Below, in pieces: positions 1,784-9,657 of a stretch of DNA of 21,817 nucleotides. A program made the translations under genes and the position numbers. The stretch is taken from IMG/VR virus record IMGVR_UViG_3300030098_002067, positions 1-21,817 of that record; one strand, 5' to 3'. Under the pieces are notes generated by a model that was given only the letters and a program-made list of their open reading frames with translations, was not told the DNA's origin and ran no database searches. The stretch comes from a virus. Every line of letters begins with the position of its first letter. Positions within the stretch are counted from its first letter, which is position 1.

Positions 1784-2158
1784 TTATATTTCCTGTATTA
1801 TAGTAGAAGGTGTCTCTGATGTCAATATTGTTCCAACAACTCTTTGCCCAATAGGAGATACAACGAAACTAATGATGGCAATAGCACCAGCAATAGTCCA
1901 CATTTTCTTCTCTATTGTCCTCAATCTCTCATCTACCTTGCGAATATCTCTCTCACATCCTGCTTTAATCTCCGCACTTTGACGGTTGACCTCTCTATGA
2001 ACCGATTGAATTTTCTCAAATAATACTGCATCTATCCTATCCTGTTTGTCTAATTTTTCATCATGGACAGCAAGCATCTGTCCCATCTTAACTGAATTAT
2101 CCTGAAGAGTTTCAATGACTCTCTCCAGTCTATCTAACATAGCTTCACTTGGTCTCAT
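1784..2158 (-). CDS. Coiled-coil protein with C-terminal membrane segment
   Basis: I chose the ATG at 2158 (124 residues): it overlaps the previous stop as ATGA and has GAGG five bases upstream. An in-frame start at 2182 would add 8 residues. The first 85 or so residues are a charged heptad-type helix (LDRLERVIETLQD onward). Residues about 86-106 (MWTIAGAIAIISFVVSPIG) form one hydrophobic segment, followed by a short polar tail. This arrangement recalls XhlA-type holin accessory proteins and other small phage membrane proteins with a long coiled coil, but I cannot name the family. A role in lysis or at the host membrane is an inference from topology only. Confidence 0.75.
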   Translation of the reverse strand: MRPSEAMLDRLERVIETLQDNSVKMGQMLAVHDEKLDKQDRIDAVLFEKIQSVHREVNRQSAEIKAGCERDIRKVDERLRTIEKKMWTIAGAIAIISFVVSPIGQRVVGTILTSETPSTIIQEI

Positions 2159-2358
2159 TTTTTCCTCAGAGATCTTGACCAAGTACCTAAAGTTTTCTTT
2201 CTTTTCATAACCTTGCCCATTACAGGAGTAAACCCTGCTCTTGGACCTTTTGCGGGAGCATCTGCACCAAAACCACCCTGACCCCCAGGAGGATTGGCAG
2301 TCATCATCTCTTCTCTTATTATAGCAATGATTCTATTAAGTTTTGTCCTTTCCATCAT
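2155..2358 (-). CDS. Small basic conserved phage protein, function unknown
   Basis: A 67-residue protein. An AGGAAG ribosome site lies just upstream of two consecutive ATG codons (2358 and 2355). The N-terminal third is helical (LNRIIAIIREE), the middle is glycine/proline-rich (PPGGQGGFGADAP), and the C-terminal part is strongly basic (KVMKRKKTLGTWSRSLRKK). The GFTPVMGKV segment looks like a conserved element of small proteins in T4-like cyanophages, from memory. It overlaps the preceding gene by 23 bases and the following coiled-coil gene by ATGA. The basic tail could bind nucleic acid or a partner; function is unknown. Confidence 0.65.
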   Translation of the reverse strand: MMERTKLNRIIAIIREEMMTANPPGGQGGFGADAPAKGPRAGFTPVMGKVMKRKKTLGTWSRSLRKK

Positions 2359-3907: not shown

Positions 3908-4090
3908 CTAAACAGCCCCCAATTTCATTGCTTTTTTGATCTTTGCAACAAGTGCATCATCAATATCATTATCAGTAGATTTGGAATACTCTTCCATCAT
4001 CTCAACAGCAAACACTTTCATCTGCTTCTTAAACACCTTCCTCACAAGCATGAGAAGAAAGGGTTTAAGTAATAAGAATAGTAAACTCAT
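3908..4090 (-). CDS. Small membrane-anchored protein
   Basis: A 60-residue protein with an N-terminal hydrophobic segment (LLFLLLKPFLLMLVRKVF) followed by a basic patch and an amphipathic acidic/lysine C-terminal half ending near KIKKAMKLGAV. One membrane segment with the rest probably cytoplasmic. The ATG overlaps the lipase stop as ATGA (4087-4090), so the two are likely made together. A phage membrane protein placed directly after a lipase could be a lysis or membrane-remodelling partner, but that is inference; no holin family is recognised. Confidence 0.7.
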   Translation of the reverse strand: MSLLFLLLKPFLLMLVRKVFKKQMKVFAVEMMEEYSKSTDNDIDDALVAKIKKAMKLGAV

Positions 4091-4710
4091 AGAATTACTT
4101 TCTTATCCGCAAAATGCTTTTCTGCTGCTTTTACATAGTCACCAATGTTATGATCTGTAACACCATCCAATCTAGTTTCTTCAATGTCTTCTAACTGAAT
4201 CTTATGATGAGGATGAACATATCCAACCAACCAAGGAGGTGTATTAGGAACAATATCATTTCCATGAACGAAACGATACTGTTCTAAACCTTCCAATCTC
4301 TTTCTAAGTCTACGTCCACCTGGTCTTGGAGCTCCAGCAGTAACAAGTGCAATGTTTTTATTACCAGATTCCCATAGTAAGTCTGCGATTAGCGTAGCAG
4401 TAGCACCACCAAGTGAATGGCCTGTAATAATAAGTTTCTTTTTAGGATCTAATCCCTCATAATCAACTACTAGTTTTGCTAGTGTTCTATTACAATTGTT
4501 CTTAAATCCTCTATGGCAATCATCTCTTCTGATTAGAAACTTAAGATTAGTTACCCAATCAGTGGTTTCTTTTGTACCTTCTACCGCAAGTATAGTGTGT
4601 CCTGTGATCTTTCTACTTACGAGGTAATCTTCTGAGTGAGGATATACATCTCGACAACACCTTAATGCTTCGAGAATTACTTCATTTGAAAGAGTTCTCG
4701 TGCAACTCAT
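4087..4710 (-). CDS. Class 3 lipase-like alpha/beta hydrolase
   Basis: A 207-residue protein with a clear alpha/beta-hydrolase signature: VEGTKETTDW (43-52), a segment typical before the lid region in Lipase_3, the nucleophile elbow GHSLGG (97-102, S99), the TAGAPRPGG strand, VHGNDIVP (148-155, D152) and DHNIGDYV (186-193, H187). S99, D152 and H187 form a plausible catalytic triad. Class 3 lipases hydrolyse acylglycerols or phospholipid acyl chains. No signal peptide is seen, so it would act in the cell or within the particle. It lies in the late block between a DUF3008-like protein and a small membrane protein whose start overlaps its stop. A role in membrane damage during lysis or entry is inferred; the family assignment is strong. 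Confidence 0.88.
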   Translation of the reverse strand: MSCTRTLSNEVILEALRCCRDVYPHSEDYLVSRKITGHTILAVEGTKETTDWVTNLKFLIRRDDCHRGFKNNCNRTLAKLVVDYEGLDPKKKLIITGHSLGGATATLIADLLWESGNKNIALVTAGAPRPGGRRLRKRLEGLEQYRFVHGNDIVPNTPPWLVGYVHPHHKIQLEDIEETRLDGVTDHNIGDYVKAAEKHFADKKVIL

Positions 4711-4723
4711 TTTAATATAGCAA

Positions 4724-5521
4724 CTAATCTATATATACATTTCTCATAAAATCTTTATACGAAATCCCCTCTTTTATTGCAGGTTTGTCATGCTTTTTCT
4801 TACTACCAATTTTCTTTTTAAGTTTTTCATAATCATCTGATTCATTTACATCCCCACCACTGTCACCCTTATGGAGAGTTTTATAACGATGTGCCATAGC
4901 CTTCTTATTCTTCTTCTTCCAATCCTTATCACCAGCATAAGCATTTCCAAAAAGATTATTATCCTTCATGGTTGTTGCTTCATTTCTCATTTTTTTCTTT
5001 GCCTTAATCTGCCTCATTAAATCCTTATAATCAATCTCAGTTCTTCTTGCCCTAGCACTATCCCAATCTTTAGGATCCTTACTTTGATCAAGCACCGATG
5101 CTTTCTTTAATTTCTTACTATCCTTTACACTCAAAGATTCTTCTTGATACTTCTTATACTTCTTATCAGTACCAGGTTTATAATGTGGTTTGTCACCTTT
5201 CTTCTTCATAGACCACATCAACTTAAACATATCCGCAGTCTTTTCCTTCTTGGTTGTACTACCAGGCAATCCTTTAAATCTACCATCATCCAGTGCTCTC
5301 TTGAAGGCAGCAGCAGTTCCACCAATCTTTGACTTAGGTTTCCAAGGTTTAGTTTTTTCTTTCTCTGCCTTCGTATGACCCCAACCAGGAGGGGATACTT
5401 CCTGAATATCTTGTGCAAAATCCTTAGCAACTTTCTTACTGATACCCTTTTTCTTTCTCTCCTCTGGATTAGACAAGAGATAACCGAAATATTTTTGTTG
5501 CTTCTTAGAGACGGCTGGCAT
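4724..5521 (-). CDS. Lysine-rich protein with DUF3008-like N terminus
   Basis: I place the start at 5521 (265 residues) because GGGAGG lies eight bases upstream and the protein then begins MPAVSKKQQKYFG, the typical opening of DUF3008 proteins. An in-frame start at 5563 would add 14 residues. The remainder is basic and low in complexity, with many KKK runs, a repeated YKDxM element (IDYKDLM and the near-terminal SYKDFM), and little predicted hydrophobic core. It overlaps the upstream acidic gene by 17 bases. In the late lysine-rich block, it is probably a virion-associated or DNA-contacting protein; no enzymatic motif is visible. Confidence 0.75.
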   Translation of the reverse strand: MPAVSKKQQKYFGYLLSNPEERKKKGISKKVAKDFAQDIQEVSPPGWGHTKAEKEKTKPWKPKSKIGGTAAAFKRALDDGRFKGLPGSTTKKEKTADMFKLMWSMKKKGDKPHYKPGTDKKYKKYQEESLSVKDSKKLKKASVLDQSKDPKDWDSARARRTEIDYKDLMRQIKAKKKMRNEATTMKDNNLFGNAYAGDKDWKKKNKKAMAHRYKTLHKGDSGGDVNESDDYEKLKKKIGSKKKHDKPAIKEGISYKDFMRNVYID

Positions 5522-5795
5522 TTTCAGATCCTCCCTCAAAGTCATGAATACTTTCCGATCCACCTATCGCAAAAGGATTATACTTTGCTCTTGCTAATCT
5601 ATATGCTTTTTCGTGCATAGTTACAATTTCCTCTGCACTCTTTTCAAATTCAGGGGTATATTCATGACGTGAAGCATAAGCATCTGCTATCTCTTCTTCA
5701 GGTCTTGGATTTTCGTCAGTTGCAATTGGCATAACATCATGTGGGTGAGGTTTACTGAACCATTCATCATAAGGCATTTCAGGTAAAGGCATCAT
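5505..5795 (-). CDS. Small acidic hypothetical protein
   Basis: A 96-residue protein, acidic and rich in proline, histidine and glutamate at the N terminus (EMPYDEWFSKPHPHD) and helical in the middle (EFEKSAEEIVTMHEKAYRLA). It starts in a TAATG overlap with the preceding lysine-rich gene, using either of two adjacent ATG codons (5795 or 5792), and its end overlaps the start of the DUF3008-like gene. Its acidity stands out among basic neighbours, so it could be a partner of one of them. No family is recognised. Confidence 0.65.
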   Translation of the reverse strand: MMPLPEMPYDEWFSKPHPHDVMPIATDENPRPEEEIADAYASRHEYTPEFEKSAEEIVTMHEKAYRLARAKYNPFAIGGSESIHDFEGGSENASRL

Positions 5796-6853
5796 TAACC
5801 CTTTGGATAACGACCTTGTGATGGGTCTTTCGCACGTTCTGCTGCATTTTCTGCATCAACTTTTGCTTGATGAGCACGAGCCTTTGCTTTATCAGCAGCA
5901 CTTTGTGGTTTAATTTTATCACGCTTTGTCAATACTCCATCACCATACTTCTTCTTAAGTTTAGAAACGACATAATCATAGGCCTTGTCTTCCTTATTAA
6001 AAGGTCTAAATGCTGCCTTACGTGTTGCTCTGTTAACTTCCTTGGCACTATCCACCCCATCTCTAGGTTCCACTAAATTATTTGGATTTTTCTTTGCTTC
6101 CATCTCAACATAGGCTGACTTGTCACCTTTGATCTTCTTATCTCCACGATCAGATCTATGGAGTGCTCTCCTTAGTTTACCATGACCAGCAACATTGTGA
6201 CTGACACCAAACTTACGAACGTTTCTATCCTTCTCCTTCTGTTCTGGTGACTTACCTGCATCTACCTTTGCTTCTAATTGAACTTCTTCATAAGCATATC
6301 TGTCATCAGACTTGCTGGTATCACCCTTTCTCTTTGCTATATCCTTTGCAGTTTGTAGCATAGAATCTGCTGCTTGATTCTTTACAGAACCAGGTCCACG
6401 ATCCTTCTTAGCAGCCTTCTCAAATCTTTTTCTAACTTTAGGATCTCTCTTAAATGCTGTTAATACTTCTCCTGTTTTCTTCTTTTCATAGGTAGTTTCT
6501 CTTATATCATCAGGAACATTATCCTCACTACCAGAAACATACTTAGCATGTGCCTTTCTTGCTAACTTTCTCTTTGCTCTTGCACCAGCATCCATTGCTT
6601 TTTCAGCTTTCTTCTCTTTCTTCTTTCTAGCAACACTCTTTATCATCTTCATTACACCTTCAACCAACTCACCGTCTGGTTCATGTGATGCCATGATACC
6701 AGTAGCACCACCTCTTACTGCTCTCATCTTGGTCATGAGAACACGTTTCTTCAACATGTTCTCTTTATCTTGAGCCTGTTTCAGTTTAGGATCTTCCTTT
6801 TTAGGTTCCTCTGCAGGTGATGCCTGTTCTAAAAATTGATAAAGTGTCTTCAT
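5795..6853 (-). CDS. Lysine-rich late protein with capsid-targeting-like N terminus
   Basis: A 352-residue, highly basic, low-complexity protein. The first residues MKTLYQFLEQA resemble the capsid-targeting peptide of T4 internal head proteins (MKTYQEFIAEA), which is cleaved by the gp21 protease during head maturation. The rest consists of short basic helical stretches (for example RKRFEKAAKKD and RKFGVSHNVAGHGKLRRALH) separated by polar linkers, and a C-terminal AKARAHQAKVDAENAAERAK helix. No enzyme motif is seen. It overlaps the 502-residue gene by ATGA (6850-6853). I infer a head-internal or DNA-associated protein; a scaffold-core role is an alternative. Confidence 0.8.
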   Translation of the reverse strand: MKTLYQFLEQASPAEEPKKEDPKLKQAQDKENMLKKRVLMTKMRAVRGGATGIMASHEPDGELVEGVMKMIKSVARKKKEKKAEKAMDAGARAKRKLARKAHAKYVSGSEDNVPDDIRETTYEKKKTGEVLTAFKRDPKVRKRFEKAAKKDRGPGSVKNQAADSMLQTAKDIAKRKGDTSKSDDRYAYEEVQLEAKVDAGKSPEQKEKDRNVRKFGVSHNVAGHGKLRRALHRSDRGDKKIKGDKSAYVEMEAKKNPNNLVEPRDGVDSAKEVNRATRKAAFRPFNKEDKAYDYVVSKLKKKYGDGVLTKRDKIKPQSAADKAKARAHQAKVDAENAAERAKDPSQGRYPKG

Positions 6854-8358
6854 CTTACGTTAGCAGCATACCATCTTTCAAACTCTTCCCGATCCTTATT
6901 TCCTCTTGGTGGCATTTTACGACGTGCCTGTCCACGAATTGCTTCACCCTTTTTCGCTGCGGCACGTTCCTTTCTTTCACCTTCTTCAGGATTACGTTGA
7001 TAACCTTCGTCAAATTGAATCCACGCCATGTTGCGATCATCTTCCACTATCATAAGATAAATCATTTCTTCAATGTCTTCTTTCTTCATTGAAGCAAAGG
7101 TCTGAGCAAGATTTGCTTGACGTTCTGTACGGGTGCTGTACTTAGACTTGTTAGCATCAACATGCTTTGCAAACTGCTGAACACTCATACCTGCTGCTTT
7201 TGCCTTACGGGTAAATGCACCTGGTCTCTTAACTGCACCTTGAATCCAATCTTTTGCTTCCTTTACACCAAACTTATAACCTTTATAATTTGGAGTATCC
7301 ACCTTATCTGCCTTAGCAACATCCTTACCCTTTAAAGTTTTACCTGCTTTTGAAAGATCCTTAAGTTCTTTACTTACTACACCTTCTGCTGCGTAAGAAT
7401 CCTTTATGTAAGCATGTGTTTCACTCTTCTTACCTTCTTTCTCCCTAGTAGATCCCTTAGCATGTTTCCAACGGTGACCTGACTTCTGTGCATCTTCTGC
7501 TCCCTTGTCACGTTGCCACTTAGCATAGTCACGTTCTCTCTTAGCTTGCTTCTTCTTACCATGCATACTGTCATAGGTAGCATCTCTCGTACCTTTCCTT
7601 GCCTTATCAAAAGCAATAACTGCCTTTACCTGATCAGGAGTGTCCTTATCTTTTTTCTCTTGAAGATCTACTTCGGTCTCAGAAATTACTTGACCACCAA
7701 TCTCAGCAACTGCTTCACTCATCTTAGGGTTGATAATTACCTTATTCTTAATACCCTTCTTCTCAGTTACTTCCTTTTCTGATTCAACATCAGTAATAGG
7801 ATGAGCACTTACAATCTCTCTAAGATCATCTCTCCAACTTGAGAAAGATTCTTTTTTCATATGATCAGCAGCCTTATAACCTTTTACACCTGCTTTATAA
7901 TTTTGATATGCCTTAGTGTTTGCTTTCTTATCTGCATTAGTAACAGTTAATGGAGCACCAGCAAGATTATCTTTCTTACGACGTTCTGCTTCTACTTGTG
8001 CAGGAGTCTTTCCATACACTGCTTCTTTTACTTCACCCTTCTCGTATCCTTTTCCATCACCATCATCATCCCACCATCTCTTTTTCTTCTTACCATTTTT
8101 ACCATTCTTGTTTGGTGCTCCTGCTAGATCATCATCCTTTTTCTTTTTCTCTTCCATATCAGCAGGATTTAAGGAATTACCCTTCTTATCATACCCATAA
8201 TCCTTATCCTCTTTACTTAAATTCGCCATAGTCTTCATTTGAAGGTTAAGTTCACCCTCCCATCGCTTCACTTCGGTCTCTTCTTCCTTCTTGTTCATCT
8301 TAGCAATAGTATCCAAATATGTTCTGGATATATCATTCAACGGATTTAAAGTTGACAT
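6850..8358 (-). CDS. Very lysine-rich late protein with DDLAGAP motifs and an acidic DxDGDG loop
   Basis: A 502-residue, extremely charged protein. Two copies of a short motif are present: KKDDDLAGAP (73-82) and RRKKDNLAGAP (126-136); the nucleotidyltransferase gene just upstream carries a third. Residues 95-106 (WWDDDGDGKGYE) look like a calcium-binding EF-hand or dockerin-type loop, a motif I remember as common in marine T4-like phage proteins. Later parts contain a helical stretch (GMSVQQFAKHVDANKSKY, about 387-404) and a basic C terminus. A TATAAATA late promoter lies 33-40 bases before the ATG. No strong ribosome site is seen. The likely role is structural or head-internal; no enzymatic function is evident. 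Confidence 0.78.
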   Translation of the reverse strand: MSTLNPLNDISRTYLDTIAKMNKKEEETEVKRWEGELNLQMKTMANLSKEDKDYGYDKKGNSLNPADMEEKKKKDDDLAGAPNKNGKNGKKKKRWWDDDGDGKGYEKGEVKEAVYGKTPAQVEAERRKKDNLAGAPLTVTNADKKANTKAYQNYKAGVKGYKAADHMKKESFSSWRDDLREIVSAHPITDVESEKEVTEKKGIKNKVIINPKMSEAVAEIGGQVISETEVDLQEKKDKDTPDQVKAVIAFDKARKGTRDATYDSMHGKKKQAKRERDYAKWQRDKGAEDAQKSGHRWKHAKGSTREKEGKKSETHAYIKDSYAAEGVVSKELKDLSKAGKTLKGKDVAKADKVDTPNYKGYKFGVKEAKDWIQGAVKRPGAFTRKAKAAGMSVQQFAKHVDANKSKYSTRTERQANLAQTFASMKKEDIEEMIYLMIVEDDRNMAWIQFDEGYQRNPEEGERKERAAAKKGEAIRGQARRKMPPRGNKDREEFERWYAANVR

Positions 8359-8367
8359 GGCAAGCTT

Positions 8368-9630
8368 TTAACTCTTCTTTTTCTTATATTTATTTATAAA
8401 CTGTCTACCCCATGCTGGTTTGGATTGACCAGGAACCATTGTTTCTGCATACTTTTTATAAGCATCTGTACCAATTAACCTTTGATCTGACGGAACTCCC
8501 GATGGATTTACTGCTTCCATCACGTCTTTTACCCATGATTTGAACATATAATTCTCTTTTGTCACACATATAAGGTGATTTGTACCTCTACGGATGATTT
8601 CACCTATCAATCCTGTGTTTAAATTCTCTACAATATCTCCTATCTTATAGATTAATCCCTGTATATAATTCTCTCTTAGTCCTTTTCTATCTAAACTTGG
8701 TGCAATTTCCCATAAATCATAAGACTCTTTTACTTTCTTCTTCTTTTGCTTCATTCCAGTGCGAACAGCATCAAAAACTGCTTGTGCATCCGCATCTTTC
8801 AATCCTTTTGGGGTTCCTCTCTTAAAAGCATCAAAATCATCGTCTTGAACTGCCTTTCTCATCTTAGATGCAGACATTCCTTCCACTCCTTCAGCATCAG
8901 AATCCCTTACACCAGCTGAAATTACCCTAATTAAGTCGAAATTATAGAGTTCTCCGTTGTATTTTTGTGCTAAGTTCTCAAATTCTGCCTGTCTGTCTGC
9001 TCCTACAATGATATTTACGTTCTTAAATCCATCTGCTTCTGCGGTTTTAAGCACATCAAAGATAGTTTTCATTTCACCATCATTAATAATCTCTTCCTCA
9101 TAATCAGGGAACATTTTTTTCATATAAGAGACCTTCATGTCAGGATCAAGAGGATTTTTCTTCGGATCCTGTGATCTTGAGGGATAAATCTTAAGTGCTC
9201 CACCTGCTGCTGCCTTTCTTGCTGCTCCTAATAGTTTTTCATGACCTACAGTTGGAGGATTAAACCTACCAAATGCTGTTGTAAGGGTCTCACCTTCACC
9301 TTTTTCTCCTTTTTCCTCTGGTTTTTTCTGTAAAGGTGCTCCTGCAAGGTCATCATCCTTCCTACGCTTTGCTTCAATCGCTTCTGGCGATCTTGCCATC
9401 TTCTTCGCATTTACAGGAAGATGTGATGGACGGCCTGGAGTCTGATCTGGATCTTTTCCTGGTCTCTGATTCTTATTGAAAAATCTTAACTTATCTCCTT
9501 CTGTTTTTGCTACAAATTCTCCACTACGATCCAACCAACCACCGTGGCCATCGCTCTTGAGTCCCAATTTAAGTGCTTGTTCTCTCGCCTTGGACTGCGT
9601 TTCGGTTAAAAATTGGAATAAAGTCTTCAT
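8368..9630 (-). CDS. Nucleotidyltransferase-like late protein with capsid-targeting-like N terminus
   Basis: A 420-residue multidomain protein. Residues 1-10, MKTLFQFLTE, resemble the T4 capsid-targeting peptide, and LTE fits a gp21-type cleavage site. Residues 20-55 form a module around SDGHGGWLDRSGEF. A KDDDLAGAP motif follows (91-99). Residues about 116-290 carry nucleotidylyltransferase superfamily marks: AFGRFNPPTVGHEKL (119-133, a variant HxGH with TVGH), IIVGADRQAEF (207-217) and MSASKMRKA (252-260, the ISSTxxR-like motif), which would join a nucleotide to a phosphate-bearing partner. Residues 328-372 look like a small SH3/KOW-type barrel (KIGDIVENLNTGLIG). Substrate is unknown. It follows a late-promoter-like box and precedes the lysine-rich gene. 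Confidence 0.82.
   Translation of the reverse strand: MKTLFQFLTETQSKAREQALKLGLKSDGHGGWLDRSGEFVAKTEGDKLRFFNKNQRPGKDPDQTPGRPSHLPVNAKKMARSPEAIEAKRRKDDDLAGAPLQKKPEEKGEKGEGETLTTAFGRFNPPTVGHEKLLGAARKAAAGGALKIYPSRSQDPKKNPLDPDMKVSYMKKMFPDYEEEIINDGEMKTIFDVLKTAEADGFKNVNIIVGADRQAEFENLAQKYNGELYNFDLIRVISAGVRDSDAEGVEGMSASKMRKAVQDDDFDAFKRGTPKGLKDADAQAVFDAVRTGMKQKKKKVKESYDLWEIAPSLDRKGLRENYIQGLIYKIGDIVENLNTGLIGEIIRRGTNHLICVTKENYMFKSWVKDVMEAVNPSGVPSDQRLIGTDAYKKYAETMVPGQSKPAWGRQFINKYKKKKS
8391..8398 (-). promoter_or_regulatory. Late promoter (TATAAATA) inside the end of the nucleotidyltransferase gene
   Basis: The minus strand reads TATAAATA about 33-40 bases upstream of the 502-residue gene. It lies in codons for the basic C terminus of the upstream protein (INKYKKKK), so AT-rich lysine codons could produce it by chance, but the position is right for a late promoter. 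Confidence 0.5.
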
Positions 9631-9649: not shown

Positions 9650-9657
9650 TATTTAGC
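9650..9657 (-). promoter_or_regulatory. Possible late promoter (GCTAAATA)
   Basis: In the 33-base gap before the nucleotidyltransferase gene, the minus strand reads GCTAAATA, six of eight bases of TATAAATA, followed by TATAGTATAA. A start about 10 bases downstream would leave only a short leader before the ATG at 9630. Confidence 0.4.

Follow-up and report, generated by a model that had tools for sequence, protein, structure and literature searches.

Two genes of one viral block begin with nearly the same ten residues, and this raises the question of whether the shared start carries their products into the phage head. The block lies in a stretch of 21,817 nucleotides (IMG/VR record IMGVR_UViG_3300030098_002067), the whole of which was analysed and is called the window here. 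It represents part of a T4-like cyanophage genome, and its DNA polymerase-, UvsX-, gp41- and primase-like genes are 60-83% identical to those of Synechococcus phage S-SCSM1. An earlier note had proposed that the two genes share a start like that of T4 internal head proteins, that both stand behind late-type promoters in a lysine-rich block, and that both products, one of them an enzyme, are packed in the head and delivered with the DNA. The shared start was confirmed. The open reading frames (ORFs) at 9630 and 6853 on the minus strand open with MKTLFQFLTE and MKTLYQFLEQ and encode proteins of 420 and 352 amino acids (aa), and the main proteins of the block do contain 12-23% lysine. With the relaxed start MK-x-[FLY..]-x-x-[FYL]-[LIVMF]-x-[EQD], these two ORFs alone matched in the window. 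We consider it likely that the 420-aa protein is packed inside the head, with a T4-type capsid-targeting leader that would be cut off and a body that would be injected, and that its 352-aa neighbour is probably packed and not cut at residue 10. The packaging of the enzyme is well supported. The presence of its orthologues in virions was published by others; this analysis contributes the leader, the extent to which it is conserved, and its association with virion proteins and with phages that have a gp21-type protease.

We compared the leader with the T4 signal, taking T4 as the control. As the earlier note had stated, T4 IPII and IPIII start with MKTYQEFIAE/A (the slash marks the cut); IPI starts with MKTFKEFTSTTTPVSTITE/A. 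Mutagenesis in T4, as reviewed (PMC9026906), assigns leader residues 4 and 7 to targeting and residues 8 and 10 to processing. Aspartate at position 10 blocks cutting while targeting is retained, and gp21 cuts after L/I-x-E (PMC9026906). Among 71 distinct orthologues of the enzyme, M1, K2, F7, L8 and E10 are invariant, position 4 holds either F or L, and the residue after E10 is usually A or T. The overall pattern is MK-x-[F/L]-x-x-F-L-x-E, and length variation sets in just past residue 11. Both the targeting positions (4 and 7) and the cleavage positions (8 and 10) of the T4 signal are thereby conserved in 71/71 relatives, and the LTE at residues 8-10 of the window protein obeys the gp21 rule, as had been suggested. 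A start of the form MK-x-[FYL]-x-x-F, which holds the two targeting residues, is present in both window proteins and in all 71 orthologues. Examples are MKSFLQFLKE/A in S-SCSM1, MKNFSSFLTE/A in S-CREM2 and MKKFSAFLNE/A in S-SM1; the S-SZBM1 orthologue starts with MRFRQFIIE/A, shorter by one residue. T4 and six cyanophages have comparable sites at the corresponding place of their major capsid proteins: LTE/A in T4 and S-CREM2, LAE/A in S-SCSM1, LSE/A in P-SSM2, LTE/T in S-SM1 and Syn9, and IAE/Q in S-SM2.

Orthologues of the enzyme have been detected by mass spectrometry in purified virions of S-SCSM1 (PMC9602691), S-SM1 (PMC3037559), S-CREM2 (PMC10665884) and S-SZBM1 (PMC9146016). The virion presence of the window's enzyme is by orthology to these relatives, among them S-SCSM1 ORF91 with 63% identity. 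The earlier note had recommended looking for the MKTxxxFL(x)E start among virion proteins of related phages. In S-CREM2, for which the complete virion list is in print, the four proteins with the full motif are all virion proteins (ORF6, an S-adenosylmethionine (SAM) hydrolase; ORF13; ORF14, a kinase with a GTG start; and ORF154, the cytidylyltransferase), an enrichment with p 0.003 given 52 virion proteins of about 219. When S-CREM2 and S-SCSM1 were pooled, 5/6 motif proteins were in the virion (p 0.0014). Two further candidates were set aside. S-CREM2 ORF12 ('Cas9') was not counted as tagged; it has LRFASFMAE at residues 17-25, where the possible start codon is CTG. The strict-motif match in S-SZBM1 is a hypothetical protein of 105 aa, encoded close to the terminase gene, and not the cytidylyltransferase.

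The expectation that one of the two proteins is an enzyme also held. Judged from its motifs and its structural model, the 420-aa protein is a nicotinamide mononucleotide (NMN)/cytidylyl-transferase-like enzyme with a predicted nucleotidyltransferase fold. It is matched by 528 phage records, mostly of cyanophages. The catalytic domain matches phrog_395, and PF01467 reached 20.6 bits, slightly below its cut-off of 21. The active-site motifs are GRFNPPTVGH (GRFNPPTxGH in the family) and GMSASKMR (GMSASKxR), of which the TxGH and SxSxxR residues are invariant. A sequence search of the PDB with the enzyme gave nothing useful. Foldseek with the predicted model (mean pLDDT 67.9) returned NadD, CoaD and NadM matches, and NadD-type and CoaD-type structures fitted about equally well (E 8.5e-06 for NadD/CoaD). 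A small SDGHG domain directly follows the leader. In seven complete phages, matches to its profile were confined to the nucleotidyltransferase orthologues, the S-CREM2 kinase ORF14 and S-CREM2 ORF12; the SDGHG-domain proteins of S-CREM2 and S-SCSM1, together with the S-SM1 orthologue, are published virion proteins. As a side observation, we regard the CRISPR-Cas9 nuclease label of ORF12 (OR473000, 7704-10313) as doubtful: Pfam gave no domain for this protein, and its PHROG match is phrog_3561, of unknown function.

The breadth of the tag was assessed in phage genomes and viral contigs. We applied the pattern MK.[FLY]..F[LIM].E to 1630 gene N-termini from seven T4-like phages, using crude gene sets; 14 matched, where 2000 column shuffles gave an expected mean of 0.035. 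The T4 genes picked were IPII, IPIII and gp61.1. On 7643 internal methionines the same pattern gave one match, at an alternative start codon. Multiplying the column frequencies gives a rough probability of 2e-7 that a random gene opens with MKTLxQFL. Across 2.9 million viral contigs, one DNA form of the motif (MK[ST]FKxFLxEA) occurred in at least 120 stretches, and a scrambled pattern of the same composition in none. Among the matches listed, most sites lie a few codons past an upstream stop, like gene starts, and 69 tagged proteins of at least 60 aa fall into at least 34 families with no BLAST similarity past residue 12. Pfam matches were mostly weak (nucleotidyltransferase, HAD phosphatase, methyltransferase, acetyltransferase, double-psi barrel and DUF6267), and most tagged proteins had none. 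A gp21-type protease (Peptidase_S77, PF03420) was found in 15/32 tagged contigs and 2/28 random ones (p 0.0006, the sets not being length-matched), and in 8/9 tagged contigs longer than 100 kb. The motif was counted 22 times in 1.78 Mb of a set chosen for having the tag, as against once in 1.81 Mb. A prohead protease is annotated in S-SCSM1 and S-CREM2; the window is a fragment outside the head genes. From these results we lean towards the view that T4-like marine viruses share the T4 capsid-targeting leader as a general, swappable cargo tag, which would load dozens of unrelated proteins as pre-made injected effectors, such that gene starts alone would predict delivery. The candidate cargo comprises SAM hydrolase, kinase, HAD phosphatase, methyltransferase, acetyltransferase and double-psi-barrel domains as well as unknown proteins.

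The claim that both proteins are packed in the head stood for the enzyme, given its orthologues in the virions of four phages and the four T4-signal residues kept in every relative; it was weakened for the 352-aa protein, which lacks the cleavage residue. The latter has LEQ at residues 8-10, and its first L/I-x-E lies at residue 65, outside the 10-19 residues of such a leader. A cut at residue 10 is not expected because this position is Q. The 352-aa protein is probably targeted to the head and uncut at residue 10; its packing is plausible. Its relatives start with MKTLNKFLEQ, MKNLNQFLNE, MKTFKQFKEQ, MKTYKQFTEQ and MKTFEQFTEG on otherwise reshuffled bodies, so that the family retains the targeting positions while positions 8 and 10 vary. 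Its C-terminal module (residues 283-352) is also found in further proteins of relatives, and other proteins share modules alone with it and start differently. Pfam and PHROG searches returned nothing for the 352-aa protein; the search of viral contigs gave one relative, tblastn against phages gave partial matches only, and no homologue was found in phages with published virion data. Between the two tagged genes lies a gene for a 502-aa lysine-rich protein without the leader, related to SSCSM1_92, a virion protein identified by mass spectrometry. The leader is therefore not the sole route into the particle.

The proposal that both genes stand behind late-type promoters was correct for the enzyme gene, which has a T4-late-promoter-like CTAAATA box, and not for the 352-aa gene, for which no separate box is present. 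The end of the 502-aa gene overlaps the 352-aa gene, and the nearest upstream box (8397..8387) lies ahead of the 502-aa gene. Within the window alone the number of boxes is not above chance; the conservation of a box upstream of the enzyme gene among relatives (25/26) is striking. All 12 CTAAATA/ATAAATA boxes of the window are on the coding (minus) strand. A sigma-70 scan was uninformative.

Several observations weigh against a packaged, leader-directed enzyme. The HTVC008M homologue starts with MKTLKELLRK, without F7 and without a cleavage site, and the enzyme gene of S-PM2 is interrupted. S-SCSM1 ORF30 (106 aa) is tagged and has no virion label, although it may have been missed, and several proteins of the same block that were detected in virions have no tag; the tag is thus not needed by every packed protein. 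Moreover, the detections in four phages concern orthologous enzymes and do not count as four independent cases, and the S-SCSM1 and S-CREM2 papers leave room for the enzyme having simply co-purified (PMC9602691, PMC10665884). Following this last point, the enzymes could be late proteins, made in abundance, that adhere to virions in the course of caesium chloride purification, with the leader serving another role such as a tether to the membrane or to a late assembly site. We think this unlikely, since the enzyme was detected repeatedly, in four phages, the leader fits the T4 signal at the experimentally tested positions and is followed by a cleavage motif of the capsid-protein type, and the leader is enriched in phages with a gp21-type protease.

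The shared start could also reflect descent from one ancestral gene, or chance, without being a signal; most tag occurrences in cultured cyanophages do belong to the same orthologous enzyme. This is highly improbable in view of the many tagged families unrelated past the leader and of the column shuffles and the scrambled-pattern scan, which gave almost no matches. It is possible, though we doubt it, that the leader targets the enzyme and the 352-aa protein only resembles it and is not packed, in which case the finding would hold for one protein. The Q at position 10, the missing site, the fast-changing mosaic body, the lack of a homologue among published virion proteins and the loss of positions 8 and 10 in relatives all favour this alternative. 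It is opposed by the retention of positions 1, 2, 4 and 7 in several relatives whose remainder is reshuffled, by the T4 data in which targeting is independent of the cleavage residues (PMC9026906), and by the virion homologue of the untagged 502-aa neighbour.

If both proteins are packed as we propose, the following course can be pictured. From the T4 experiments and the conservation, leader residues 4 and 7 would bind the prohead core and direct targeting. Judging from the cleavage site, the gp21-type prohead protease would then read residues 8 and 10, cut after E10 and free the enzyme. By analogy, the freed nucleotidyltransferase with its SDGHG domain would remain in the head and be ejected with the DNA into the cell, where it probably acts on nicotinamide adenine dinucleotide (NAD) or a related nucleotide pool ahead of any phage gene expression. 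The 352-aa neighbour, having the targeting half of the signal, would probably be packed with it. NAD-rebuilding pathways are known in phages (PMC12774641), and one possibility is that the enzyme restores NAD against an NAD-depleting defence.

A separate observation concerns copies of the capsid arm. Of seven T4-like phages, six each encode one further protein that reproduces the mature N-arm of their own major capsid protein, and it is the single strong outlier of the proteome. The window encodes a 67-aa protein of this kind, which matched the S-SCSM1 capsid protein arm with z 7.8 (0/2000 shuffles). In T4, S-SCSM1, S-CREM2 and the window, the gene lies near the gene 61 primase, and two of the copies are published virion proteins. 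T4 gp61.1 and the S-SM2 copy also bear the targeting leader, and the predicted cut would therefore expose the arm copy. A tagged 86-aa protein of P-SSM2 was tried as a capsid-arm copy and showed no match to the capsid arm.

Other features of the window were recorded as well, all on the minus strand. A lysine-rich protein at 4724-5521 starts with MPAVSKKQQKYFG, like the virion protein SSCSM1_93 (MPAVSKAQQRFMG), and represents another recurrent N-terminal motif of the block. The 420-aa protein has one copy of a short motif like RRKKDDDLAGAP, and the 502-aa protein has two. The same block encodes a class 3 lipase-like protein at 4087-4710 (PF01764, E 1e-20), and the corresponding block of P-SSM2 has a lipase-annotated gene. 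Outside these genes, the protein at 19658-20785 matches PF14236 (DruA, Druantia) at residues 91-187 (E 4.5e-08).

Table. Positions of the two leader genes, their parts and the capsid-arm copies; window coordinates unless a phage is named.
Feature	Position	Strand	Remarks
Tagged enzyme gene	8368..9630	minus	420 aa, begins MKTLFQFLTETQSK
Leader MKTLFQFLTE of the 420-aa enzyme	9601..9630	minus	predicted gp21-type cut after E10 (LTE/T)
SDGHGGWxD..GEFVAKT small domain	9463..9597	minus	residues 12-56, directly after leader
Nucleotidyltransferase domain (NMN/NaMN or phosphopantetheine adenylyltransferase type)	8731..9291	minus	residues about 114-300; phrog_395 E 2e-102
C-terminal domain GDIVENLNTGLIGEIIRRGTNHLICVT...SWVKDV	8515..8679	minus	residues 318-372; profile matches in six of six cyanophage orthologues
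T4-late-promoter-like box CTAAATA upstream of enzyme gene	9650..9656	minus	[CAT]TAAATA at most 60 nt upstream in 25/26 relatives
502-aa lysine-rich protein without leader	6850..8358	minus	E 3e-14 to SSCSM1_92
352-aa lysine-rich mosaic protein	5795..6853	minus	begins MKTLYQFLEQASPAEE; also given as MKTLYQFLEQASP
Leader MKTLYQFLEQ of the 352-aa protein	6824..6853	minus	targeting positions 4 and 7 present; without L/I-x-E at 8-10
67-aa protein copying mature N-arm of major capsid protein	2155..2358	minus	related to virion protein SSCSM1_97
Capsid-arm copy, T4 gp61.1	L188:467-631		
Capsid-arm copy, S-SM2	91376-91804		
Capsid-arm copy, S-SCSM1_97	93121-93306		
Capsid-arm copy, S-CREM2 ORF160	128342-129235		
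Capsid-arm copy, Syn9	154429-154953		
Capsid-arm copy, S-SM1	152805-153353		

Cyanophage virion studies left such enzymes as either cargo or contamination, and a T4-type leader with a cleavage site offers a mechanism and a simple test. A ten-residue signature would also make it possible to list putative injected proteins of uncultured T4-like viruses, whose genes mostly lack a known function; its presence on many unrelated phage proteins should help to find what T4-like viruses inject into ocean bacteria. If the cargo proteins are anti-defence or host-takeover factors, as T4 IPI is, the list would reveal what these viruses bring into a cell before transcription.

The packaging of the enzyme is already published, and the link to the T4 leader is added here; our literature search, of partial coverage, found no paper that links the T4 leader to cyanophage proteins. 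The virion-associated NMNAT/cytidylyltransferase of cyanophages (T4-GC190; S-SCSM1 ORF91, S-CREM2 ORF154) is orthologous to the window enzyme and is likewise a virion protein, whereas the available parts of those papers do not mention a targeting leader. T4 IPI, IPII and IPIII resemble the present case in their 10-19 residue leader, MKT[FY]xxF followed by an L/I-x-E site, and in having unrelated bodies under one leader. They differ in that the T4 bodies are small, whereas the body here is a conserved 420-aa enzyme with the SDGHG domain next to the leader and a cut that is predicted. T4 Alt, whose leader is not known to be of the MKT type, is also comparable. It is a head-borne enzyme processed by gp21 (PMC9026906), as the 420-aa enzyme would be.

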